Of a stretch of DNA of 45,018 nucleotides, positions 10,297 to 20,802 are shown in pieces. The notes below the pieces were generated by a model. That model saw only the letters and a list, made by a program, of their open reading frames with translations. It made no database searches and was not told the origin of the DNA. Position numbers and translations under genes: made by a program. Source of the stretch: Desulfomonilaceae bacterium (lineage in GTDB: Bacteria; Desulfobacterota; Desulfomonilia; Desulfomonilales; Desulfomonilaceae); NCBI GenBank assembly GCA_031082285.1, contig JAVHLK010000035.1, forward strand, positions 1,432 to 46,449, in the 5' to 3' direction. How positions within the stretch are numbered: the stretch's first letter is position 1; every line of letters starts with the position of its first letter.

Positions 10297-10503
10297 ATCT
10301 CCCTTCGCGGCCTGAACTGGGGATGCCGCTCCCGTCATGTGGGACTGAGACGGCGAGTAATCGGATCCGGGGCAGTGTAGTCCTGCGAGAGGCGATGTGG
10401 TTTTTCCCTTGTCCGGCATGCATTCATCCTGAAAATCGTGTATACTGGAGCACTCAAGGCGACTCGCCGTTCCGAGTATTTCTCGTCTGCGAGGCGGTGC
10501 ATC

Positions 10504-11031
10504 GTGCGCTGGTTGATATTGTACATTCAGGCCGCATCGATCATACCGGCCCTGGCGGTGCTGTTGTGTCCGGGTACGCCCCTCGCCGGACAGGATGCAA
10601 AGAGCCTGCTGAACACGGGCACGATACTGGTGGATCGGACCCACTACCTCGAGGCTCTGGATTTACTCGAAGAGGCCAAGGACGTTCTCGATCATGACGG
10701 GTTGAAGGAAACCGCGTTGTACGCCGACGTTCTTCACGCACTGGCCGAAGCCAAGATCAAGGGAAGGCTCTATCAGAGTTTCTCCGCGTATTACGTGAAA
10801 ACCGCTCTGCAGGACATAAAGGCCGCGAACCGAATCAGAGAGAAGCTTGGGGGAATACTGCCCCAGACGATGGCCCAGGGGTATTATCTCGAAGGTTTCA
10901 TCCACAAACGATTCTTCATGGACAAGGAGAAAGCCAAGTCGTGTTTCATGAAGGCGGTGAGCGTGGACTCGAGTTCCGCGGCAGCGAAGCGAGAATGGAG
11001 TGAACTCATTATCGGCGATCGCTGGGAATAG
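10504..11031 (+). CDS. Secreted TPR-like protein, unknown
   Basis: The preferred start is the GTG at 10504 with GAGG nine bases upstream, giving 175 residues with a hydrophobic signal segment (about 3-28, ending near PLAGQ) and a helical mature part. An ATG at 10438 is in frame but lies next to a -10-like TATACT (10441-10446), so it would be untranscribed if that promoter is used. Stretches such as YLEALDLLEEAKDVLD and YYLEGFIHKRFFMDKEKAKSCF followed by KAVSVDSSSAAAKREW look like TPR repeats. Function is unknown; periplasmic location is inferred. Confidence 0.6.
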   Translation: MRWLILYIQAASIIPALAVLLCPGTPLAGQDAKSLLNTGTILVDRTHYLEALDLLEEAKDVLDHDGLKETALYADVLHALAEAKIKGRLYQSFSAYYVKTALQDIKAANRIREKLGGILPQTMAQGYYLEGFIHKRFFMDKEKAKSCFMKAVSVDSSSAAAKREWSELIIGDRWE

Positions 11032-11525: not shown

Positions 11526-12416
11526 GTGAATCTGCAGGAATATTTGACGGAAAACCGCCGGACAGTGGATAAGGCTCTTGACGAGATGCTCCCGGCTGAG
11601 GATAATGAGCCGACGCTTCTGCATCAGGCCATGAGATACAGTGTCTTTGCCGGTGGAAAGCGACTTCGGCCCATACTGGCCATGACCGCGGCGGAGATCG
11701 TGAGCGGGGACGGGGAATGCGTCATGCCTTTGGCGGTGGCCCTGGAATGCATTCACACGTACTCGCTGATTCACGATGACCTTCCCGCCATGGATGATGA
11801 CGACGTGCGAAGGGGGAAGCCGACCGCACACAAGGTATTCGGCGAGGCGGTCGCCATTCTGGCGGGCGATTCTCTGCTGACGTTCGCCTTTGGCGTCTTG
11901 GCCGGCCCGGGAAGTATTCGGATCTATCGACCGGATCGCCTGCTCGCCACAATTGGAGAGTTGGCCGTTGCCGCAGGTCCCGAGGAGCTCATCGGGGGTC
12001 AGTTTCTCGATATCATGAGCGAGAACAAACCGGTGGAGGCACAAACGGTCGAGCGGATCATGCTGAGCAAGACGGCTGCACTCATCAGCGCATCGTTGAC
12101 GTGCGGAGCCCGACTTGCCGGAGGATGCGAGGAAGAGATACGCATCTTGGGGCGCTACGGAAAGATGTTGGGATCGGCCTTTCAGATGAAGGACGATCTC
12201 CTGGATCTCGAAGGCGACGCCGCAAAACTGGGGAAGGCGGTCAAGAAGGATCACGAACACGGAAAAGCCACCTACCCAAAGCTGTTGGGAAAAAGTAAGA
12301 CCAAGGACATGATGCGCGAGCTGATCGACTTGGCCCTTGACGTGATCCGGCCGTTCGGTGCAAGAGCGGCCATTCTGGCCGATATAGGACGATACGTCGT
12401 CGAACGGGTTCATTGA
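11526..12416 (+). CDS. ispA: Polyprenyl synthetase (geranyl/farnesyl diphosphate synthase)
   Basis: Short-chain trans-prenyltransferase of 296 residues that condenses IPP with DMAPP/GPP. The first aspartate-rich motif is DDLPAMDDDD (residues 84-93), GGKRLRP near 43-49 binds IPP, and the second motif is QMKDDLLD. The start is a GTG 12 bp after xseB with a weak ribosome site, suggesting coupling to xseB. Product length (C15 versus C20) cannot be fixed from sequence alone. Confidence 0.93.
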   Translation: MNLQEYLTENRRTVDKALDEMLPAEDNEPTLLHQAMRYSVFAGGKRLRPILAMTAAEIVSGDGECVMPLAVALECIHTYSLIHDDLPAMDDDDVRRGKPTAHKVFGEAVAILAGDSLLTFAFGVLAGPGSIRIYRPDRLLATIGELAVAAGPEELIGGQFLDIMSENKPVEAQTVERIMLSKTAALISASLTCGARLAGGCEEEIRILGRYGKMLGSAFQMKDDLLDLEGDAAKLGKAVKKDHEHGKATYPKLLGKSKTKDMMRELIDLALDVIRPFGARAAILADIGRYVVERVH

Positions 12417-12445
12417 AGCATTTTGTCGCGCGAGAAGCAGATCAG

Positions 12446-14389
12446 ATGACCGACCATGAAACCTCAATCCTGAAGCAAATCGAATCCCCCCAAGACCTCA
12501 AGGACCTCTCTCTGGAGTCCATGCAGGTCCTGGCCGACGAACTCCGTGACCTGATCATCCGTACGGTTTCCCAGCGAGGAGGGCATCTGGCTTCCAGTCT
12601 TGGAGTCGTTGAGCTTACGCTGGCCCTTCTTAAGGTCTTCTCGCCTCCCGAGGACCGCATCGTCTTCGACGTCGGCCATCAGGCATACGCGTACAAGATT
12701 CTCACCGGCCGACGAGACGCTTTTCACACCCTGAGAACAAGAGGCGGCCTGGCCGGCTTCCCGAAGCGTGAAGAGAGCGATTACGATTTTTTTGACGTGG
12801 GGCATGCGGGCAATGCCATCAGCGCGGCGGCTGGATTGGCCCAGGCAAGGTGTTTCGGGGGGAGCAACCACAAGGTCATAGCGGTGGTGGGTGACGGGTC
12901 CCTCACATGCGGCGTGTCGTATGAGGGTCTCAATCAGGCGGGTGCCGCAAAGAAGGATCTCATCATTATTCTCAACGATAATGAGATGTCCATCTCACCC
13001 AATGTGGGAGCCATGGCCGCATACCTCAATCGAATCATGACCGGCCAAATCGTGACGCGTTTCCGCGACGAGGTGAAGAACATTCTCAAGAACATACCGG
13101 GCGTCATGGGGCGATCCATGTACGTCCTTGCCAAGCAATTCGAGGATGCGTTCAAGGGCTTTATTACCCCCGGAAAACTTTTTGAGGAACTCGGATTCAA
13201 CTACGTGGGACCCATCGACGGCCATCGGATAAAGCACCTGGTGGACACGTTGAACAATGTCAAGCGATTCCGAGAACCCGTCTTGATCCACGCGATCACA
13301 TGCAAGGGGAAGGGGTACAGCCAGGCGGAACAGAAGCCCAGCCTGTACCACGGTGTCGGCCCTTTTGACATCGACACGGGCAAAGTCAAGTCCGAGGACG
13401 GTCCCCCATCGTATACGAAAGTCTTCGGTCAGACGCTGATCAAATTGGCCGCGTCGGATCCCAAGGTGGTGGCCATCACGGCCGCCATGGAGTACGGAAC
13501 CGGTCTGGCGGAATACGGGCGCCTGTTTCCGGACCGCTTCTTTGATGTGGGAATAGCCGAACAGCACGGGGTGATCTTCGCCGCGGGATTGGCCGCGGAG
13601 GGCTACCGGCCGGTTGTAGCGATTTATTCAACGTTCATGCAGCGGGGGTACGATCACATCGTTCACGATGTCTGCATGCAGAAGCTTCCCGTCGTCATGG
13701 CAATGGACCGTGCCGGCATCGTGGGAGAGGACGGGCCTACCCACCACGGCGTCTTTGACATCGCGTTTACCAGGACCATTCCCAATCTGGTGGTTATGGC
13801 ACCAGCCGATGAAGACGAACTGGCCGACATGCTGGCAACCGCGGTAACAACCGTCGACGGCCCGAGCGCGATACGGTATCCCCGAGCCAAGGGCCAAGGG
13901 GTTGAAATCAAGAAGACCGCGTCGGTTATTCCCATCGGCACGGCACGAATGCTGAGGGAAGGTCACGACTTACTCATCATTGCAGTTGGATCCATGGTTC
14001 CGCCGGCCGTGGCGGCATCTCGGATGCTCGCCGAGGAGGGAATCGGCGTAGGGGTCATGAACGCACGCTTTGTGAAGCCCTTGGACCGAGATATGATCGT
14101 CGAAAAGGCATCCGCCGTCCCCAATGTCTTGACGGTTGAGGAAGGAGTGCTGGCAGGCGGATTTGGCGGCGCCATAACTGAATTACTTGCCGACAACGGC
14201 CTAAGTCACGTCAAGGTCCTCCGCATGGGGATAGGTGACGCATTTGTGGAGCACGGTACCCGTGAAGAGCTTCTCGCCGATCTGGGGCTGACGGCGGACG
14301 GCATCGCGGATATGGCGCGTTGTCTGGTGGTGAAGACCCCGAAATCCACGCCGCGCTCCGTATCCTTCGTGAGAAGCCGCACCAGTTGA
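12446..14389 (+). CDS. dxs: 1-deoxy-D-xylulose-5-phosphate synthase
   Basis: Thiamine-diphosphate enzyme that opens the MEP isoprenoid pathway by joining pyruvate and glyceraldehyde-3-phosphate. Motifs: HQAYAYKILTGRRD near the N-terminus, the ThDP/Mg motif GDGSLTCGVSYEGLNQAG...ILNDNEMSISPN, and DRAGIVGEDGPTHHGVFDI in the pyrimidine-binding domain, followed by the C-terminal transketolase domain. The ATG at 12446 gives 647 residues, slightly above the usual 620-635. An in-frame TTG at 12413 overlaps the ispA end and is less likely. Confidence 0.96.
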   Translation: MTDHETSILKQIESPQDLKDLSLESMQVLADELRDLIIRTVSQRGGHLASSLGVVELTLALLKVFSPPEDRIVFDVGHQAYAYKILTGRRDAFHTLRTRGGLAGFPKREESDYDFFDVGHAGNAISAAAGLAQARCFGGSNHKVIAVVGDGSLTCGVSYEGLNQAGAAKKDLIIILNDNEMSISPNVGAMAAYLNRIMTGQIVTRFRDEVKNILKNIPGVMGRSMYVLAKQFEDAFKGFITPGKLFEELGFNYVGPIDGHRIKHLVDTLNNVKRFREPVLIHAITCKGKGYSQAEQKPSLYHGVGPFDIDTGKVKSEDGPPSYTKVFGQTLIKLAASDPKVVAITAAMEYGTGLAEYGRLFPDRFFDVGIAEQHGVIFAAGLAAEGYRPVVAIYSTFMQRGYDHIVHDVCMQKLPVVMAMDRAGIVGEDGPTHHGVFDIAFTRTIPNLVVMAPADEDELADMLATAVTTVDGPSAIRYPRAKGQGVEIKKTASVIPIGTARMLREGHDLLIIAVGSMVPPAVAASRMLAEEGIGVGVMNARFVKPLDRDMIVEKASAVPNVLTVEEGVLAGGFGGAITELLADNGLSHVKVLRMGIGDAFVEHGTREELLADLGLTADGIADMARCLVVKTPKSTPRSVSFVRSRTS

Positions 14390-14497
14390 CCGATCGCCGA
14401 GTCTATTTCAGATCGTGTCTTTGTACAACGAGTGCCGGCACCAGAATGCGTGCAGGCAGGACGCACAAGCCGTCGCGGACCTTTCCGAGAACTCCGG

Positions 14498-16066
14498 ATG
14501 ACTGATGATACCCTCCGACAGGATTCAGGGGTACGGAGTCCGTACTCCGGTCCTCGCCACACAGCGGGAGCGACGAGGCGCGATCCGATCGACCCCGCGA
14601 AGATGATCCTGTTGTTCAACGCTTCCAAGGCGCTGGCTTCTACTACCGATCTCGATCATCTCCTCAGCGTCATCGTGGGCGAAGTTCAAGGGGTGCTCGA
14701 TTGCGAGGGAGCAGGGGTGCTGCTCTACGACGAGGACCACGATGAGTTCTACTGGAGAACGGTTGAGGACAAGGAGAGCTATCTCTCATCGGCAAGTCGG
14801 GAGATACGAATTCCTCGCGATCAGGGCGTATGCGGGTGGGTGTTCAACACCGGCGAGCCCGCGCTCGTGCACGACGCGGCCAATGATCCCAGACTGTACC
14901 GGGAAGTAGATAACAAGTCCGGATTCACTACGAGAAACATGATCTGCGTCCCGCTTCAGACCAGAGATAAGCGACAAGGAGTGCTGTACGCGCTGAACAA
15001 GGAGGACGGGGCGTTCACGGATGAAGATGTCGAGATAATGACCGCGCTGGCCGGAAATGTGGCTTTGGCCCTTGAAAATGCCGCCTACTTTGAGAGTCTG
15101 GTCAACTCTCACAAGGAACTGGAGCGCCTCAACGTCGTAAAGAACAAGATACTCAATCATCTTTCCCATGAGCTGAAGACGCCTCTGGCCATAATCGAAG
15201 CTTCACTCAGAATCCTGGAACGCAAGCTGGAAGCAATGGGGCTCGATGTCGATGAGCTTCCCTTCCAACGGATAGTGCGAAATCTTGGCCGACTGAAAAC
15301 CATCGAGAAACAGGTCGGTCACATCGTTGAAGAGAAGGACTATCCGGAACGGGAAATCATCCTCGGATTTCTCGATCACCTGAGGGACTTGATTGAGATC
15401 GAGCAGGAGGAGGAGCCGCGTCTGGCCGAAGCCATGGACGCGCTCAGGGCCCGGATCGAGTCACAGTTTCCCGGTAAGATCGAGGAAACGGAGCGTGTAT
15501 CGGTCACAGCCGCCTTCCAAGCAGCGGAATTCCGCGTCAACCAGATGACCGCGGATCGGGTCTTGGATATCCGATTCGGAGTGCCCGATCCTGCCATTAT
15601 CAAGATGCAGCCCCAAATCCTGATGTCGGTGATGGGAGGATTGCTCCGCAATGCAGTGGAGAACACGCCGGATCACGGAAGAATCGTGATCGAGGGGACA
15701 AGGTCTCCCTCGGGATACACGATCGCCATCCGCGACTATGGAGTAGGCATCCCGGAGGCCGAACAGAAGAATCTGTTCGAGTGCTTCTGTCCGGTGCGGG
15801 AAACCGACCTGTACACCTCCGGCAGGCGTTACGAATTCAACGCAGGGGGTACCGGGACCGACCTGATGAAGATCAAGATATTCTCCGAACGGTTCGGATT
15901 CGGTATCCACTTTCGGAGCACTCGTTGCTCATGTATTCCGACCGTGAGAGACGTGTGTCCGGGGGACGTTACCCGATGCCGGTTTTGTGAAAAGATCGAG
16001 GACTGCCTGGACGACGGGGGGACCGAATTCCTTATAGAGATCCCGTCGGATCGTGTGGAAGCCTAG
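14498..16066 (+). CDS. GAF-domain sensor histidine kinase with cysteine cluster
   Basis: A 522-residue soluble kinase with no membrane segment. A GAF domain (about 38-195) is followed by a short coiled coil and the phosphoacceptor motif LSHELKTPL with His224. The ATPase domain shows the N box LLRNAVENTPDHG (382-394), G1 box RDYGVGIP (412-419) and GGTGTDLM (450-457). Unusually, eight cysteines fall in 75 residues across the lid and C-terminal end: C429, C431, C477, C479, C487, C494, C497, C503. They would suit a metal or Fe-S site, which is inference. The frame opens 22 codons upstream; the ATG at 14498 was chosen. No response regulator is adjacent on this strand. Confidence 0.85.
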   Translation: MTDDTLRQDSGVRSPYSGPRHTAGATRRDPIDPAKMILLFNASKALASTTDLDHLLSVIVGEVQGVLDCEGAGVLLYDEDHDEFYWRTVEDKESYLSSASREIRIPRDQGVCGWVFNTGEPALVHDAANDPRLYREVDNKSGFTTRNMICVPLQTRDKRQGVLYALNKEDGAFTDEDVEIMTALAGNVALALENAAYFESLVNSHKELERLNVVKNKILNHLSHELKTPLAIIEASLRILERKLEAMGLDVDELPFQRIVRNLGRLKTIEKQVGHIVEEKDYPEREIILGFLDHLRDLIEIEQEEEPRLAEAMDALRARIESQFPGKIEETERVSVTAAFQAAEFRVNQMTADRVLDIRFGVPDPAIIKMQPQILMSVMGGLLRNAVENTPDHGRIVIEGTRSPSGYTIAIRDYGVGIPEAEQKNLFECFCPVRETDLYTSGRRYEFNAGGTGTDLMKIKIFSERFGFGIHFRSTRCSCIPTVRDVCPGDVTRCRFCEKIEDCLDDGGTEFLIEIPSDRVEA

Positions 16067-16448: not shown

Positions 16449-17831
16449 TCATGTCGTGGGCTGATCGATGTCGTATTCCTTGAGCTTGTGTTGCAGGGTT
16501 CTTCTCGTAATTCCGAGAACGCGTGCGGTGCGTGTCCGGTTGCCGTCATTGTCCTCAAGAGTCTTGACGATAAGTTCCTTTTCCATCTCCTTAATGGTCA
16601 TCCCGGGCCGAATGCCCTCCCTGATCTCTTTGGACAGAGGATCGTCGCCGGCCCCGCGAATCGCTTCAGGAAGCTCTGAAAAGGGGACGTAATCCTCACG
16701 GGTCAAGATGACCGATCGTTCCACGACGTTTTCCAACTCGCGGATGTTGCCGGGCCACGCATATCGCATGAGCGCGTCGAGGGCTCGAGGATGAAAGCCC
16801 TGCAGGTTTCTCTTGTTCCTTTCGTTGTAAATCTTGAGGAAATGGTCGATCAATAGGGGGATATCTTCTCTCCTTTCCCTCAACGGCGGCAAGTCAATCG
16901 GTACTACATTCAGGCGGTAGAAGAGGTCTTCCCGAAAGGCCCCCCTCTTCACCTCCTCCTCCAGGTTCCTGTTGGATGCCGCAACAATGCGTATGTCTAC
17001 TTTGACCGTCTTGGTCGACCCCAGCGGTTCGAATTCGCGTTCCTGGAGTACTCTGAGCAATTTGGCTTGAGTCGCGAAAGTCATCTCCCCGATTTCGTCG
17101 AGGAAAATGGTGCCTCTGTCCGCCAGCTCGAATCTCCCCGGACGCCTTGCCACCGCGCCGGTAAAGGCCCCACGCTCATGCCCGAAGAGCTCGCTTTCCA
17201 AGAGCGTTTCCGGAAGAGCGGCACAATTGACCTTGATGAATCTATTGTCCGAGCGCCCCGATCCCTGATGGATGGCGTTGGCGATAAGTTCCTTTCCCGT
17301 TCCCGATTCGCCCAGGATCAGCACCGACGTCGGCGACGGCGCAACCATTGCGACCCGTTCCAATATCTCTTTCATTCGGTGAGATCGTCCGACAATCTTC
17401 GAGGCATCGAAAAGATTCTCGATCCGTCGCCTCTGAAGGATGTTCTCCTCCTTAAGCCTCCAGAATTCAAGCGATTGCTGAACCTTTATCCGGAGTTCGT
17501 CGATGTCCAAGGGTTTGGTCAGATAGTCGTGCGCCCCCGCCTGTAAGGCTTCCACCGCGGTCTCTACGGACGCGTGAGCCGTTATGATAATGACGGGAAT
17601 TCCGGGCGAGATCTTCTTGATCTCCTTGAGCGCCTCGATTCCGTCAACTTGAGACATCCGGTTGTCCATGAGTATTAAATCGTAGAACTCGTCGGACACC
17701 CTCGCAATGGCATCCGATCCGTCCTCGGCTTCGAAGACCTTGTACCCGTCGAGAGAGAGGTTTGCCTGCAGCATTTTTCTCTGGGAAGGCTCGTCGTCAA
17801 CGACGAGGATCTTTGCTTTGTGTTCTGTCAT
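16449..17831 (-). CDS. NtrC-family sigma-54 response regulator (ZraR-like)
   Basis: A 460-residue regulator: receiver (about 1-120) with phosphoacceptor Asp56 in LILMDNRM and Lys106, AAA+ domain with Walker A GESGTGK (174-180), the sigma-54 contact loop GAFTGA (221-226) and DEIGEM, then a Fis-type helix-turn-helix (about 420-460, NRTRTARVLGITRRTLQHKL). The ATG at 17831 has AGGACGACAA upstream; the frame is open further but into the gap after the kinase gene. It is downstream of the kinase at 17990-19804, its likely partner. It would activate sigma-54 promoters; none was identified here. Confidence 0.93.
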   Translation of the reverse strand: MTEHKAKILVVDDEPSQRKMLQANLSLDGYKVFEAEDGSDAIARVSDEFYDLILMDNRMSQVDGIEALKEIKKISPGIPVIIITAHASVETAVEALQAGAHDYLTKPLDIDELRIKVQQSLEFWRLKEENILQRRRIENLFDASKIVGRSHRMKEILERVAMVAPSPTSVLILGESGTGKELIANAIHQGSGRSDNRFIKVNCAALPETLLESELFGHERGAFTGAVARRPGRFELADRGTIFLDEIGEMTFATQAKLLRVLQEREFEPLGSTKTVKVDIRIVAASNRNLEEEVKRGAFREDLFYRLNVVPIDLPPLRERREDIPLLIDHFLKIYNERNKRNLQGFHPRALDALMRYAWPGNIRELENVVERSVILTREDYVPFSELPEAIRGAGDDPLSKEIREGIRPGMTIKEMEKELIVKTLEDNDGNRTRTARVLGITRRTLQHKLKEYDIDQPTT

Positions 17832-17989
17832 TTGTCGTCCTGTACAACGGTTCGGATCGTCGGTCATGTGCCGGAGATGCTTCAAGAATCGGCGACGGGT
17901 CCTCTTCGCTCCAGCCGGTAGTGTTCGGCTCCATCGGTATCCCGGAAGCTCCGTGTGTGAAAGGTATGCGGGACGGTGTCGCCGGCATT

Positions 17990-19804
17990 TCAATTCCGGG
18001 CCAGGCCGGCCGTACTGTTCATATCTGCCTGCGTCCGGTCCAAACCGCTCTCATCGGGTGCCTGATAGGTAGTGAAGGTTACCGTGAAGCGCGTTCCAAC
18101 TTCAGGTTCGGACTCCACCTCGATTTCCCCTCCATGTCCTTCCACGATACTGCGCACGATTGCGAGGCCGAGTCCCGTCCCCTTCTTCTTCGTGGAAAAG
18201 AAAGGATCGAACAGTTTGTCCAGATTCTCCTTGGGAATGCCCATGCCGGTGTCCTCAATAACGATGTGGAGTCGGCCGTTGTCCACATCGTATTTCACGG
18301 AGACCTGACCTCCTCGAGGCGTGGCCTCTACCGCGTTGATGAGGATGTTGAGGAAGATCTGGGTAATCTGGTCCGTATCCATGAGCACCAGCGGCATGTT
18401 CTCACCCAAAGGAGAATGTACCAGATCGACGCCGGCCTCAGCCGCTTCTCGTTCCACTACGCGCAAGCAATGATCGAGAACCTCTTCAGGAGATCGGATG
18501 TTCAGGCGGGGCTCCCTCGGTTTGGAGTACGCCAGGAGCTTTGAAATAACCCTGTTCAGGCGGTCCACTTCGGTAAGCATCAGCTCGGTGTAGCGATAGT
18601 CCTCCTCTTCCAGAGCGAGTTTCTTCTGGAAATACTGGATGAACCCGCGGATGGAATTGAGCGGGTTGCGAATCTCGTGGGCTACGCCGGCAGACAGCCT
18701 GCCCAGTGCGGCGAATTTCTCGCTTACGATCACCTTTTGTTCCAACTCGCGAATCATCGTCAAATCCCGGAGAATGACCACGGCACCCCTCGGTATCTGT
18801 GAGTCGGGTTCCTTCAGCGGCGACACCGATAGACCGAGGAAGGTCTTCTCTTTGCTTTCGTTGGAGATTTTGACTTCTTTCTCCAGGATGGATTCCGAAT
18901 CCGCGAGCACCCGTTTGATCTCATCTTCCAGCGGCAACAATTCCTTGATGGGGCGCCCGTCCACTTCCTCTCTCGGTTTGCGCAGTATATCCAAAGCCGT
19001 GGAATTAAAGGTGGCCACACGGAGCGATCGATCCACCGTAATGAGCCCGTTGGCCATGCTCTCCTGCACATTCCTCGTGTAAGTCCTCATTTCATCAAGG
19101 GTTCTGCGCACGAGGTAGGCGTTCTGGACTACGAAAATGAAGTACACGCTGGCCGAGCCGATGATGAAGAGGATACCTCCCATGAATATCGCAAGAATGA
19201 TGTCCTGTTGGCGTATTTCCTTGAAGCGGTCCGTGCGGAGGCCCAGGAAGAGAACGTATTTTCTCTCGCGATCGAATACGTCCATGAGATCCTTGCCGAT
19301 GTGCGTCTGGCGTGCAATGAGGTCGCGCTGGGCCAGCTGATCCGGGAACGGGGTGAACGGCTTCCAGATCTCAAAAATAGTTTGCCCCCCGGGAAGTTCG
19401 AGCTTGTACGAAAGAGGCTCCCCCGTACGAATGACGGTCTTCACCGTGTCTAATTCCTTACCGATCAGCAAGCTCAACCCGATCTTGGCAGGCTCACTAT
19501 GCGCCAGTATGGTCCCGTCATCGCTGATGAGCCCGACATACTCCACCTCCGGGTCCTTGGCCGCCTGCTCGATGAGCACTTGCAGATGTTCAATGCCCCA
19601 GTCCCCCTCCATGAAACCCGTCCTGGTACCCGCTTCCAGCGTGCGTATGACCGATATTCCCTGTCGAGCGGTGAACTCTTCCATGCGCTCGTTCTGCGCG
19701 TTGATGTTGCGAAGCGTGAACAGCACAACGATCACGAGCAGCATCCCGGCAACCAAAACAATGGAAAGCACCGGCAGGTATTTTAACAGTGACTTGATTC
19801 TCAT
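17990..19804 (-). CDS. Membrane sensor histidine kinase (ZraS/AtoS-like)
   Basis: A 604-residue inner-membrane kinase. Transmembrane segments are at about 9-31 and 201-226, enclosing a periplasmic sensor region (32-200) with a VGLISDDGTILAHS core typical of Cache-like folds. A PAS domain (about 245-355), the HisKA motif AGVAHEIRNPLNSI with His376, and a complete HATPase domain (N box near 487, DTGMGIP 518-524, GTGLGLAI 542-549) follow. It precedes the NtrC-type regulator by 158 bp. ZraS senses Zn in enterobacteria, but no His/Cys metal site is obvious here, so the signal is unknown. Confidence 0.92.
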   Translation of the reverse strand: MRIKSLLKYLPVLSIVLVAGMLLVIVVLFTLRNINAQNERMEEFTARQGISVIRTLEAGTRTGFMEGDWGIEHLQVLIEQAAKDPEVEYVGLISDDGTILAHSEPAKIGLSLLIGKELDTVKTVIRTGEPLSYKLELPGGQTIFEIWKPFTPFPDQLAQRDLIARQTHIGKDLMDVFDRERKYVLFLGLRTDRFKEIRQQDIILAIFMGGILFIIGSASVYFIFVVQNAYLVRRTLDEMRTYTRNVQESMANGLITVDRSLRVATFNSTALDILRKPREEVDGRPIKELLPLEDEIKRVLADSESILEKEVKISNESKEKTFLGLSVSPLKEPDSQIPRGAVVILRDLTMIRELEQKVIVSEKFAALGRLSAGVAHEIRNPLNSIRGFIQYFQKKLALEEEDYRYTELMLTEVDRLNRVISKLLAYSKPREPRLNIRSPEEVLDHCLRVVEREAAEAGVDLVHSPLGENMPLVLMDTDQITQIFLNILINAVEATPRGGQVSVKYDVDNGRLHIVIEDTGMGIPKENLDKLFDPFFSTKKKGTGLGLAIVRSIVEGHGGEIEVESEPEVGTRFTVTFTTYQAPDESGLDRTQADMNSTAGLARN

Positions 19805-20190: not shown

Positions 20191-20802
20191 ATGATTGAAA
20201 CGAACACAGAAACAGTGGAAGCCTCTATGGTAGCGAAGGGAAGGGAATTTTTGCAGCGAGGCGAGGTATCGGCCGCCGTAGAGTGCTACGGGCAGGCTTA
20301 CGATCCGGATTCCCTCGATGAGACCGAGGCCAGAAGTATGCTGATCGAAGCACGGTCACTTCTCTCCCGAAAGCACCTGCTTGAGGCTCTGGAGAGCTTC
20401 GAGGAAGCCCTCCTCATGGGAACCGACGTTCAGCGGCGTCAGGCGCTGGACGGGATTTCCACAATCGGCGAGATAAAATCGCATCTCGTGTCTCTCACGC
20501 CAAAGCTGAAGAAGAGTTTGAAGGGGGTCGTGGGGAAGAAACGTCTGTCGTCTCTAGGACTGGCGCTCGTCTCGGATGAGGAAAACGTTGTGCTCATTCA
20601 GGATGAAGCGATAGAGAAGTTGGCCGGTCGAATCGCCCTTGGGAAGAAGATGACGAGGCTTCCCCAGCACCTTGTGGACCATCGGCTTCCCATCCGGGCG
20701 GACCGGTGCATTCCGTATACCGACGATGAGGACGTGCAATTCATCATCCAGGTCGCGTTGGAACTATCCGGGCAAAGCACGGGGGAACGAGACGATTCAT
20801 AG
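20191..20802 (+). CDS. TPR-like cytoplasmic protein, unknown
   Basis: A 203-residue soluble protein. The N-terminal half (VAKGREFLQRGEVSAAVECY, then LLSRKHLLEALESFEEALLM) looks like two TPR-type helical repeats; the C-terminal half (SLVSLTPKLKKSLKG onward) is basic then mixed and not recognised. No signal peptide. It stands alone between the kinase gene and ruvX, with an inverted-repeat region upstream. Confidence 0.6.
   Translation: MIETNTETVEASMVAKGREFLQRGEVSAAVECYGQAYDPDSLDETEARSMLIEARSLLSRKHLLEALESFEEALLMGTDVQRRQALDGISTIGEIKSHLVSLTPKLKKSLKGVVGKKRLSSLGLALVSDEENVVLIQDEAIEKLAGRIALGKKMTRLPQHLVDHRLPIRADRCIPYTDDEDVQFIIQVALELSGQSTGERDDS

Follow-up and report, generated by a model that had tools for sequence, protein, structure and literature searches.

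A fixed-length cysteine insert, most likely a metal knuckle, in the ATP-binding domain of a clade of histidine kinases from Desulfobacterota

The window (the whole stretch of 45,018 nucleotides of Desulfomonilaceae bacterium DNA that was analysed) carries a histidine kinase gene preceded on the same strand by two biosynthetic genes and followed by a convergent regulatory pair, as listed here:

11526..12416, + strand: polyprenyl synthetase gene, upstream of dxs (found in 11 of 12 ortholog loci; the twelfth stretch, L044, ends in dxs)
12413..14389, + strand: dxs, for 1-deoxy-D-xylulose-5-phosphate synthase, upstream of the kinase (found in 12 of 12 same-family ortholog loci)
14498..16066, + strand: open reading frame of an orphan, GAF-type histidine kinase of 522 aa (translated, no internal stop)
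14648..15073, + strand: GAF domain, residues 51-192 (PF01590, E 4e-20)
15140..15295, + strand: HisKA (DHp) region, residues 215-266 (Pfam PF00512 and alignment)
15614..16045, + strand: HATPase_c (CA) domain, residues 373-516 (PF02518, E 4.4e-9)
15923..16018, + strand: cysteine knuckle, residues 476-507, inserted between the final two CA strands (predicted structure and alignment)
16449-19804, - strand: NtrC-type regulator, then its own PAS kinase, convergent with the query kinase (Pfam)

Across positions 11526-16066, the polyprenyl synthetase, dxs and kinase genes lie consecutively on one strand. In one of the ortholog loci (L041) about 1.2 kb separates the open frames of dxs and the kinase, and dxs was not found in the stretches of other family members, which for most offer a flank of 4 kb or less. 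This row of genes may link the kinase to isoprenoid or quinone supply. The sequence-only reading had remarked that no partner regulator is adjacent, which is true of a partner in the same operon; the convergent NtrC-type regulator starts 382 bases downstream, on the other strand. Three of the 12 ortholog stretches (L042, L043 and L045) contain matches to the NtrC-type pair, 75-85% identical; several of the others end too early to reach it. Within the family at large, a receiver domain is absent within 400 bases in 111 of 117 kinase places, a rough and non-independent count that excludes the window, takes some loci twice and includes some stretches ending near the gene. Two loci (L099, 681-2216, and L120, 646-2085) have a sigma-54-type response regulator (REC, AAA+, HTH_8) just upstream on the same strand, and regulators of this type are candidate partners for the family kinases. 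Two further open reading frames of the window (10438-11031 and 20191-20802) have no Pfam match at E 0.001, yet they are matched in ortholog loci and are conserved proteins. No RNA family reached its gathering threshold in the window, and a scan for promoters and terminators around the kinase gene gave a signal that was, within error, no higher than that of shuffled sequence.

The kinase reading frame has an alternative in-frame start, a GTG at position 14432. Its HATPase_c domain scores 37.2 bits against a cut-off of 26.4, and its HisKA region 24.8 bits, just below the cut-off of 26.9. The phospho-acceptor is His224 in the motif SHELKTP, a position occupied by histidine in 78 of the 80 relatives in alignment A2 and by a gap in the other two. 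The boxes of the CA domain are kept (N385/N389, D413-x-G-x-G417 and G450-G-x-G453), with N385, D413, G415, G417, G450, G451 and G453 identical in all 80 of these relatives. With its H, N, G1 and G2 boxes present, the protein is, as judged from its sequence, a member of the HisKA/HATPase_c kinases, an orphan that looks active and belongs to a distinct clade. The translated frame contains cysteines at positions 69, 112, 150, 429, 431, 477, 479, 487, 494, 497 and 503. Those of the GAF domain, C69, C112 and C150 (14702-14704, 14831-14833 and 14945-14947), are shared by 10, 7 and 9 of 10 orthologs, respectively. The remaining ones are as follows:

15782..15790, + strand: C429 and C431, private to the query and outside the knuckle (alignment A2)
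15926..15928, + strand: C477, kept in 127 of 127 tails
15932..15934, + strand: C479, outside the core five; cysteine in 10 of 127 tails and 8 of 10 orthologs, mostly F, H or Y elsewhere
15956..15958, + strand: C487, kept in 115 of 127 tails
15977..15979, + strand: C494, kept in 126 of 127 tails
15986..15988, + strand: C497, kept in 93 of 127 tails and absent in 34
16004..16006, + strand: C503, kept in 127 of 127 tails

These counts were taken over 127 different full tails, among them that of the query, drawn from own-genome paralogs, same-family genomes, loci of a contig search and loci of a phylum search (169 domain matches, of which one partial match was dropped and duplicates were merged); the profiles used to collect the members include the cysteines, and relatives lacking these could have been overlooked. 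Of the five core cysteines (477, 487, 494, 497 and 503), no fewer than four are present in 126 of the 127 tails, the sole exception being L115, with three; L085 lacks C494 and has the other four. Elsewhere in the tail, any given position is cysteine in at most 2 of 127 sequences, except 479 (10) and 496 (9). C477, C494 and C503 are also invariant in alignment A1, whose 37 C-terminal sequences take in paralogs. The conservation of five of the eight cysteines is far wider than a single sequence could reveal. Chance or an assembly error was rejected as the source of the motif, which is conserved across many genomes including the complete chromosome of Desulfosarcina widdelii (L089).

The sequence-only reading had joined all eight cysteines, from C429 to C503, into one cluster spread across the ATP-lid and the C-terminal end. 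The residue numbers and the spacing C487-x6-C494-x2-C497-x5-C503 are exact in the translated frame; the single unit is not borne out, since C429 and C431 are absent from all ten orthologs of A2 as well as from the 12 ortholog rows of A1 (largely the same genomes), and C479 is found only in close orthologs. Conservation among orthologs, which that reading had itself put forward as the means of refuting it, upholds the five core cysteines and discards C429 and C431, with C479 shared by 8 of 10 orthologs and few other relatives. Position 429 is glycine in 79 and alanine in one of the 80 relatives in A2; position 431 is cysteine in one of them and tyrosine in the orthologs, and a double-GAF relative (L052) has a cysteine there in A1. 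C429 (15782-15784), just past the F box, thus stands at a near-invariant glycine position, and this private cysteine in the catalytic loop might alter kinase activity.

The two core cysteines that vary do so along subgroup lines. In A1, a double-GAF subgroup (L052-L059, L061, L065, L100, L111 and others) lacks C487 and has C497, and a short PAS subgroup lacks C497 and has C487. Among the 12 tails without C487, mostly from the double-GAF subgroup, 11 still have C497. Mutual exclusion of the two losses is not significant over the 127 tails (Fisher P 0.18), and an exchange of C487 and C497 as fourth ligand is suggestive only.

In the AlphaFold model of the full-length protein (mean pLDDT 81.8, pTM 0.59), C477 to C503 fall not across the ATP-lid but in an insert flanked by predicted strands at 469-475 and 508-516. 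A site in the lid was rejected on this ground, the insert coming after the helix of the G2 box. What endures of the earlier claim is a conserved cysteine set inside the kinase core and not in an upstream sensor, with a conservation compatible with the binding of a metal or an Fe-S centre; what falls away is the grouping of all eight cysteines and their placement in the lid. Blocks of the insert have pLDDT values of 84-95, compared with 57-78 for the lid blocks of residues 421-450. Folded alone, the 54 residues 467-520 gave a best model with mean pLDDT 90.3, the other four reaching 81-85, and pTM ranged from 0.54 to 0.59 across the full-length and 54-residue models. The short model has a terminal strand on each side and one short helix ahead of the second strand, and is otherwise mostly irregular. 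The insert is 32 residues long in 123 of the 127 tails, 31 in three and 33 in one. The knuckle is thereby predicted to be an added element of fixed length in the last CA hairpin, one able to fold by itself.

Conservation within the insert extends beyond the cysteines: R476, P481, D485, P488, I491 and G507-G508 are each kept in at least 90% of sequences, and G489 in all of A2. The second strand starts at G508-T509, with threonine or serine at position 509 in 79 of the 80 relatives; we take G508-T509 to be motif IV of the GHKL ATPases, situated near the adenine pocket and, in relatives, lining the pocket that holds the nucleotide. The genome encodes further HATPase kinases, in which the segment between the G2 box and the final G-x-x-F measures 30-34 aa and contains 6 cysteines in 811 residues, as counted over 25 kinases (the 25 of 30 loci with a readable motif pattern, five without the pattern having been dropped). 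At that background rate, six cysteines in 27 residues would have a probability of about 4e-8, for a stretch that was picked after being seen.

Searches for known counterparts of the insert gave little. Pfam returned no family at E 1 for the query insert, although inserts this short are easily missed. Among the other 80 rows the matches were weak and scattered: Opy2 in four (best E 0.05), FIBL-2 in one (E 0.00045), UPF0547 in one (E 0.024), RecR_ZnF in one (E 0.19) and three other families; they look like coincidences of cysteine spacing and were set aside. NCBIfam at E 0.1 yielded, among the listed 25 of 64 families, only broad kinase or GAF models that scored well short of their cut-offs. When the PDB was searched by sequence with the family CA profile, no best stretch extended past profile position 133 of 182, and the insert itself had no credible match there (best E 1.4, a glutamate dehydrogenase). 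Foldseek likewise found no credible solved counterpart of the insert (best E 8.4, a UBR box), and a further fold comparison, made with two chains, gave none at Z 2. In the open-licence literature, as far as titles and the starts of abstracts go, no cysteine or metal insert is described at this position of the CA domain, and to our knowledge metal sites within the ATP-binding domain of such kinases are hardly known.

The knuckle is not peculiar to the query. A search of 17 further genomes of the same family gave orthologs in 12, with 56-72% identity over the last 156 residues; the five lacking one comprise four genomes of no more than 85% completeness and one of 97%. A search of genome contigs, led by two peptide patterns without cysteine, found 467 stretches with a coding sequence related to the CA domain; the knuckle is present in the 80 family reading frames read from the best 80 of these 467 (79 loci). 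Within these best 80, the titles name Desulfobacterota groups, Deltaproteobacteria or unplaced proteobacteria; the nearest relatives are Desulfomonile assemblies and one assembly labelled Deltaproteobacteria, and the hosts named belong to groups of sulfate reducers and syntrophs. A tail-profile search across the phylum recovered members in 55 of 395 sampled genomes and 41 of 246 genera, complete matches having E 1.2e-28 or better and three weaker ones being partial or cut. In this phylum sample no member was found in the listed genomes of another family of the same class (f2), and the spread of the family within the phylum is patchy. Searching 72,556 plasmids with tblastn gave no match.

The query genome alone has five family members among 115 HATPase_c matches. 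Ten further members carry different sensors ahead of the same core: PAS plus GAF in four, GAF in two, double GAF in one, PAS in one, four PAS domains in one and none recognised in one. In a CA-domain tree computed without the insert, the 81 family rows fall on one side of a branch (100/100) opposite 25 kinases of the same genome, in a tree that has few columns, a bootstrap that has not settled and an outgroup from one genome only. This grouping does not support convergent reuse of the motif, and the knuckle kinases would form one clade that comprises the Desulfomonile group and other Desulfobacterota.

Judging from alignments and structural models, we consider the insert most likely to be a Cys4 metal knuckle that forms part of the catalytic domain itself. 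Near-fixed cysteines at 477, 494 and 503, either 487 or 497 as the fourth, a loop that is irregular yet modelled with confidence, and a fixed length are what would be expected of a Cys4 knuckle with a single centre, and the double-GAF and PAS subgroups, each without one of the two variable cysteines, retain four either way. Binding of a metal of some kind is, we infer, probable. In the mechanism proposed here, C477, C494 and C503 would be the near-fixed ligands of one metal centre and C487 or C497 would supply the fourth; the metal would fold the knuckle and brace the last strand at its conserved G508-T509 start. The site would be an intrinsic part of the CA domain, without which the kinase would not be fully active, and the variable signal would come from the GAF domain. 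Zinc would be preferred over an Fe-S centre by a small margin, and a structural metal site, with zinc as the first candidate, is a tentative choice to which we give somewhat less than an even chance. This site is slightly favoured over a sensor because the knuckle is kept under every kind of sensor domain; its occurrence behind GAF, double GAF, PAS, PAS plus GAF and no recognised sensor suits a part of the catalytic domain and not a signal-specific sensor. Cys4 zinc sites are usually built of paired CxxC knuckles, and these appear to be missing here, as illustrated by the absence of C497 from 34 of 127 tails, which would count against zinc. The high pLDDT may reflect strong sequence conservation alone, and L115 with its three core cysteines, together with the non-significant C487/C497 exchange, would likewise weigh against a metal knuckle.

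The same cysteines could instead hold an oxygen-, redox- or metal-responsive Fe-S cluster or a labile zinc-thiolate site, in which a change would move the strand of the nucleotide pocket, switch autophosphorylation and override the GAF or PAS input. Such a sensor is the main rival, though we consider it rather unlikely. The cysteine spacing is without paired CxxC motifs; the hosts named belong to groups of sulfate reducers and syntrophs, organisms of anaerobic life; and the gene of the Desulfomonile group follows dxs in 12 of 12 loci, dxs standing at the head of a pathway that includes two Fe-S enzymes. The spacing C494-x2-C497-x5-C503 equals that of Cys20, Cys23 and Cys29 of FNR, which with a distant fourth cysteine hold a [4Fe-4S] cluster according to the available text of PMC4601167. 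Kinases with Fe-S clusters have precedents in NreB and AirS (available parts of PMC8534201 and PMC4601167), and SrrB offers one for CA-domain cysteines able to tune a kinase (available parts of PMC8774646 and PMC8534201). The FNR-like spacing is, however, not general in the family, given the tails without C497, and a site that recurs beneath so many kinds of sensor domain seems less suited to being a dedicated sensor itself. It is rather unlikely that a clade of Desulfobacterota histidine kinases carries a metal or Fe-S sensor in its ATP-binding domain through which redox or metal state would directly gate the use of ATP and override upstream input.

In a switch between thiols and a disulfide, with no metal, oxidation would join two of the cysteines and kinase activity would fall, as proposed on the model of SrrB, which carries such a disulfide in its ATP-binding domain (PMC8774646 and PMC8534201, in the parts available). 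The SrrB structure 6paj is among the chains matched by the family CA profile (E 9.5e-9, profile positions 4-132), but this match stops before the knuckle, and two cysteines would suffice for a switch whereas 126 of 127 tails retain four or five. The two reviews, in their available parts, also give conflicting accounts of the redox state in which SrrB has the lower activity. We regard such a switch as improbable. In the least probable reading, a response regulator or some other protein would dock on the knuckle, and the cysteines would serve solely as scaffold for that surface: the conserved non-cysteine positions would fit it, and with no receiver near 111 of 117 kinase places the choice of partner must rest on the proteins themselves, but it is normally the DHp domain that decides with which partner a histidine kinase pairs.

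In histidine kinases, sensor and catalyst are usually separate modules. A conserved knuckle in the catalytic domain beneath many sensors would amount to a CA domain of new structural form or else to a direct control of ATP use by redox state or metal. If the sensor reading were true, kinases with unrelated sensors would have in common a redox brake built into their catalytic domain. The bearers are bacteria of the sulfur cycle, and the family is broad within the sampled phylum.

Among known kinases, SrrB of S. aureus comes closest in the location of its cysteines, and its redox-sensitive disulfide, as described in the available parts of PMC8774646 and PMC8534201, is a printed exception to sensing only upstream of the kinase core. 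Both proteins have redox-capable cysteines inside the ATP-binding domain, and the query shares general CA homology with 6paj; SrrB, however, has one intramolecular disulfide, while the query has a 32-residue insert near the C-terminus with four to five conserved cysteines. The staphylococcal kinases NreB, with a [4Fe-4S] cluster in a PAS domain, and AirS, with a [2Fe-2S] cluster in its N-terminal region (PMC8534201 and PMC4601167, in the parts available), resemble the query as histidine kinases with a four-cysteine site and differ from it in that their sites lie upstream of the kinase core and that of the query in the CA domain. An NreB-type Fe-S kinase was rejected as a description of the query, which has no PAS match and whose conserved cysteines are at 477-503 in the CA domain. 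WalK of S. aureus, which binds zinc in a cytoplasmic PAS domain (PMC8534201, in the part available), likewise has a metal site in a histidine kinase, as is predicted for the query, but in PAS and not in CA. In its kinase boxes and in its fold (4zki_B, Z 18.8, rmsd 1.8, 152 residues aligned; 6rgy_B, Z 18.6, rmsd 6.3, 206 aligned), the query matches ordinary HisKA/HATPase_c kinases such as HK853, YycG and ZraS, from which it is set apart by the extra cysteine knuckle in its last hairpin.
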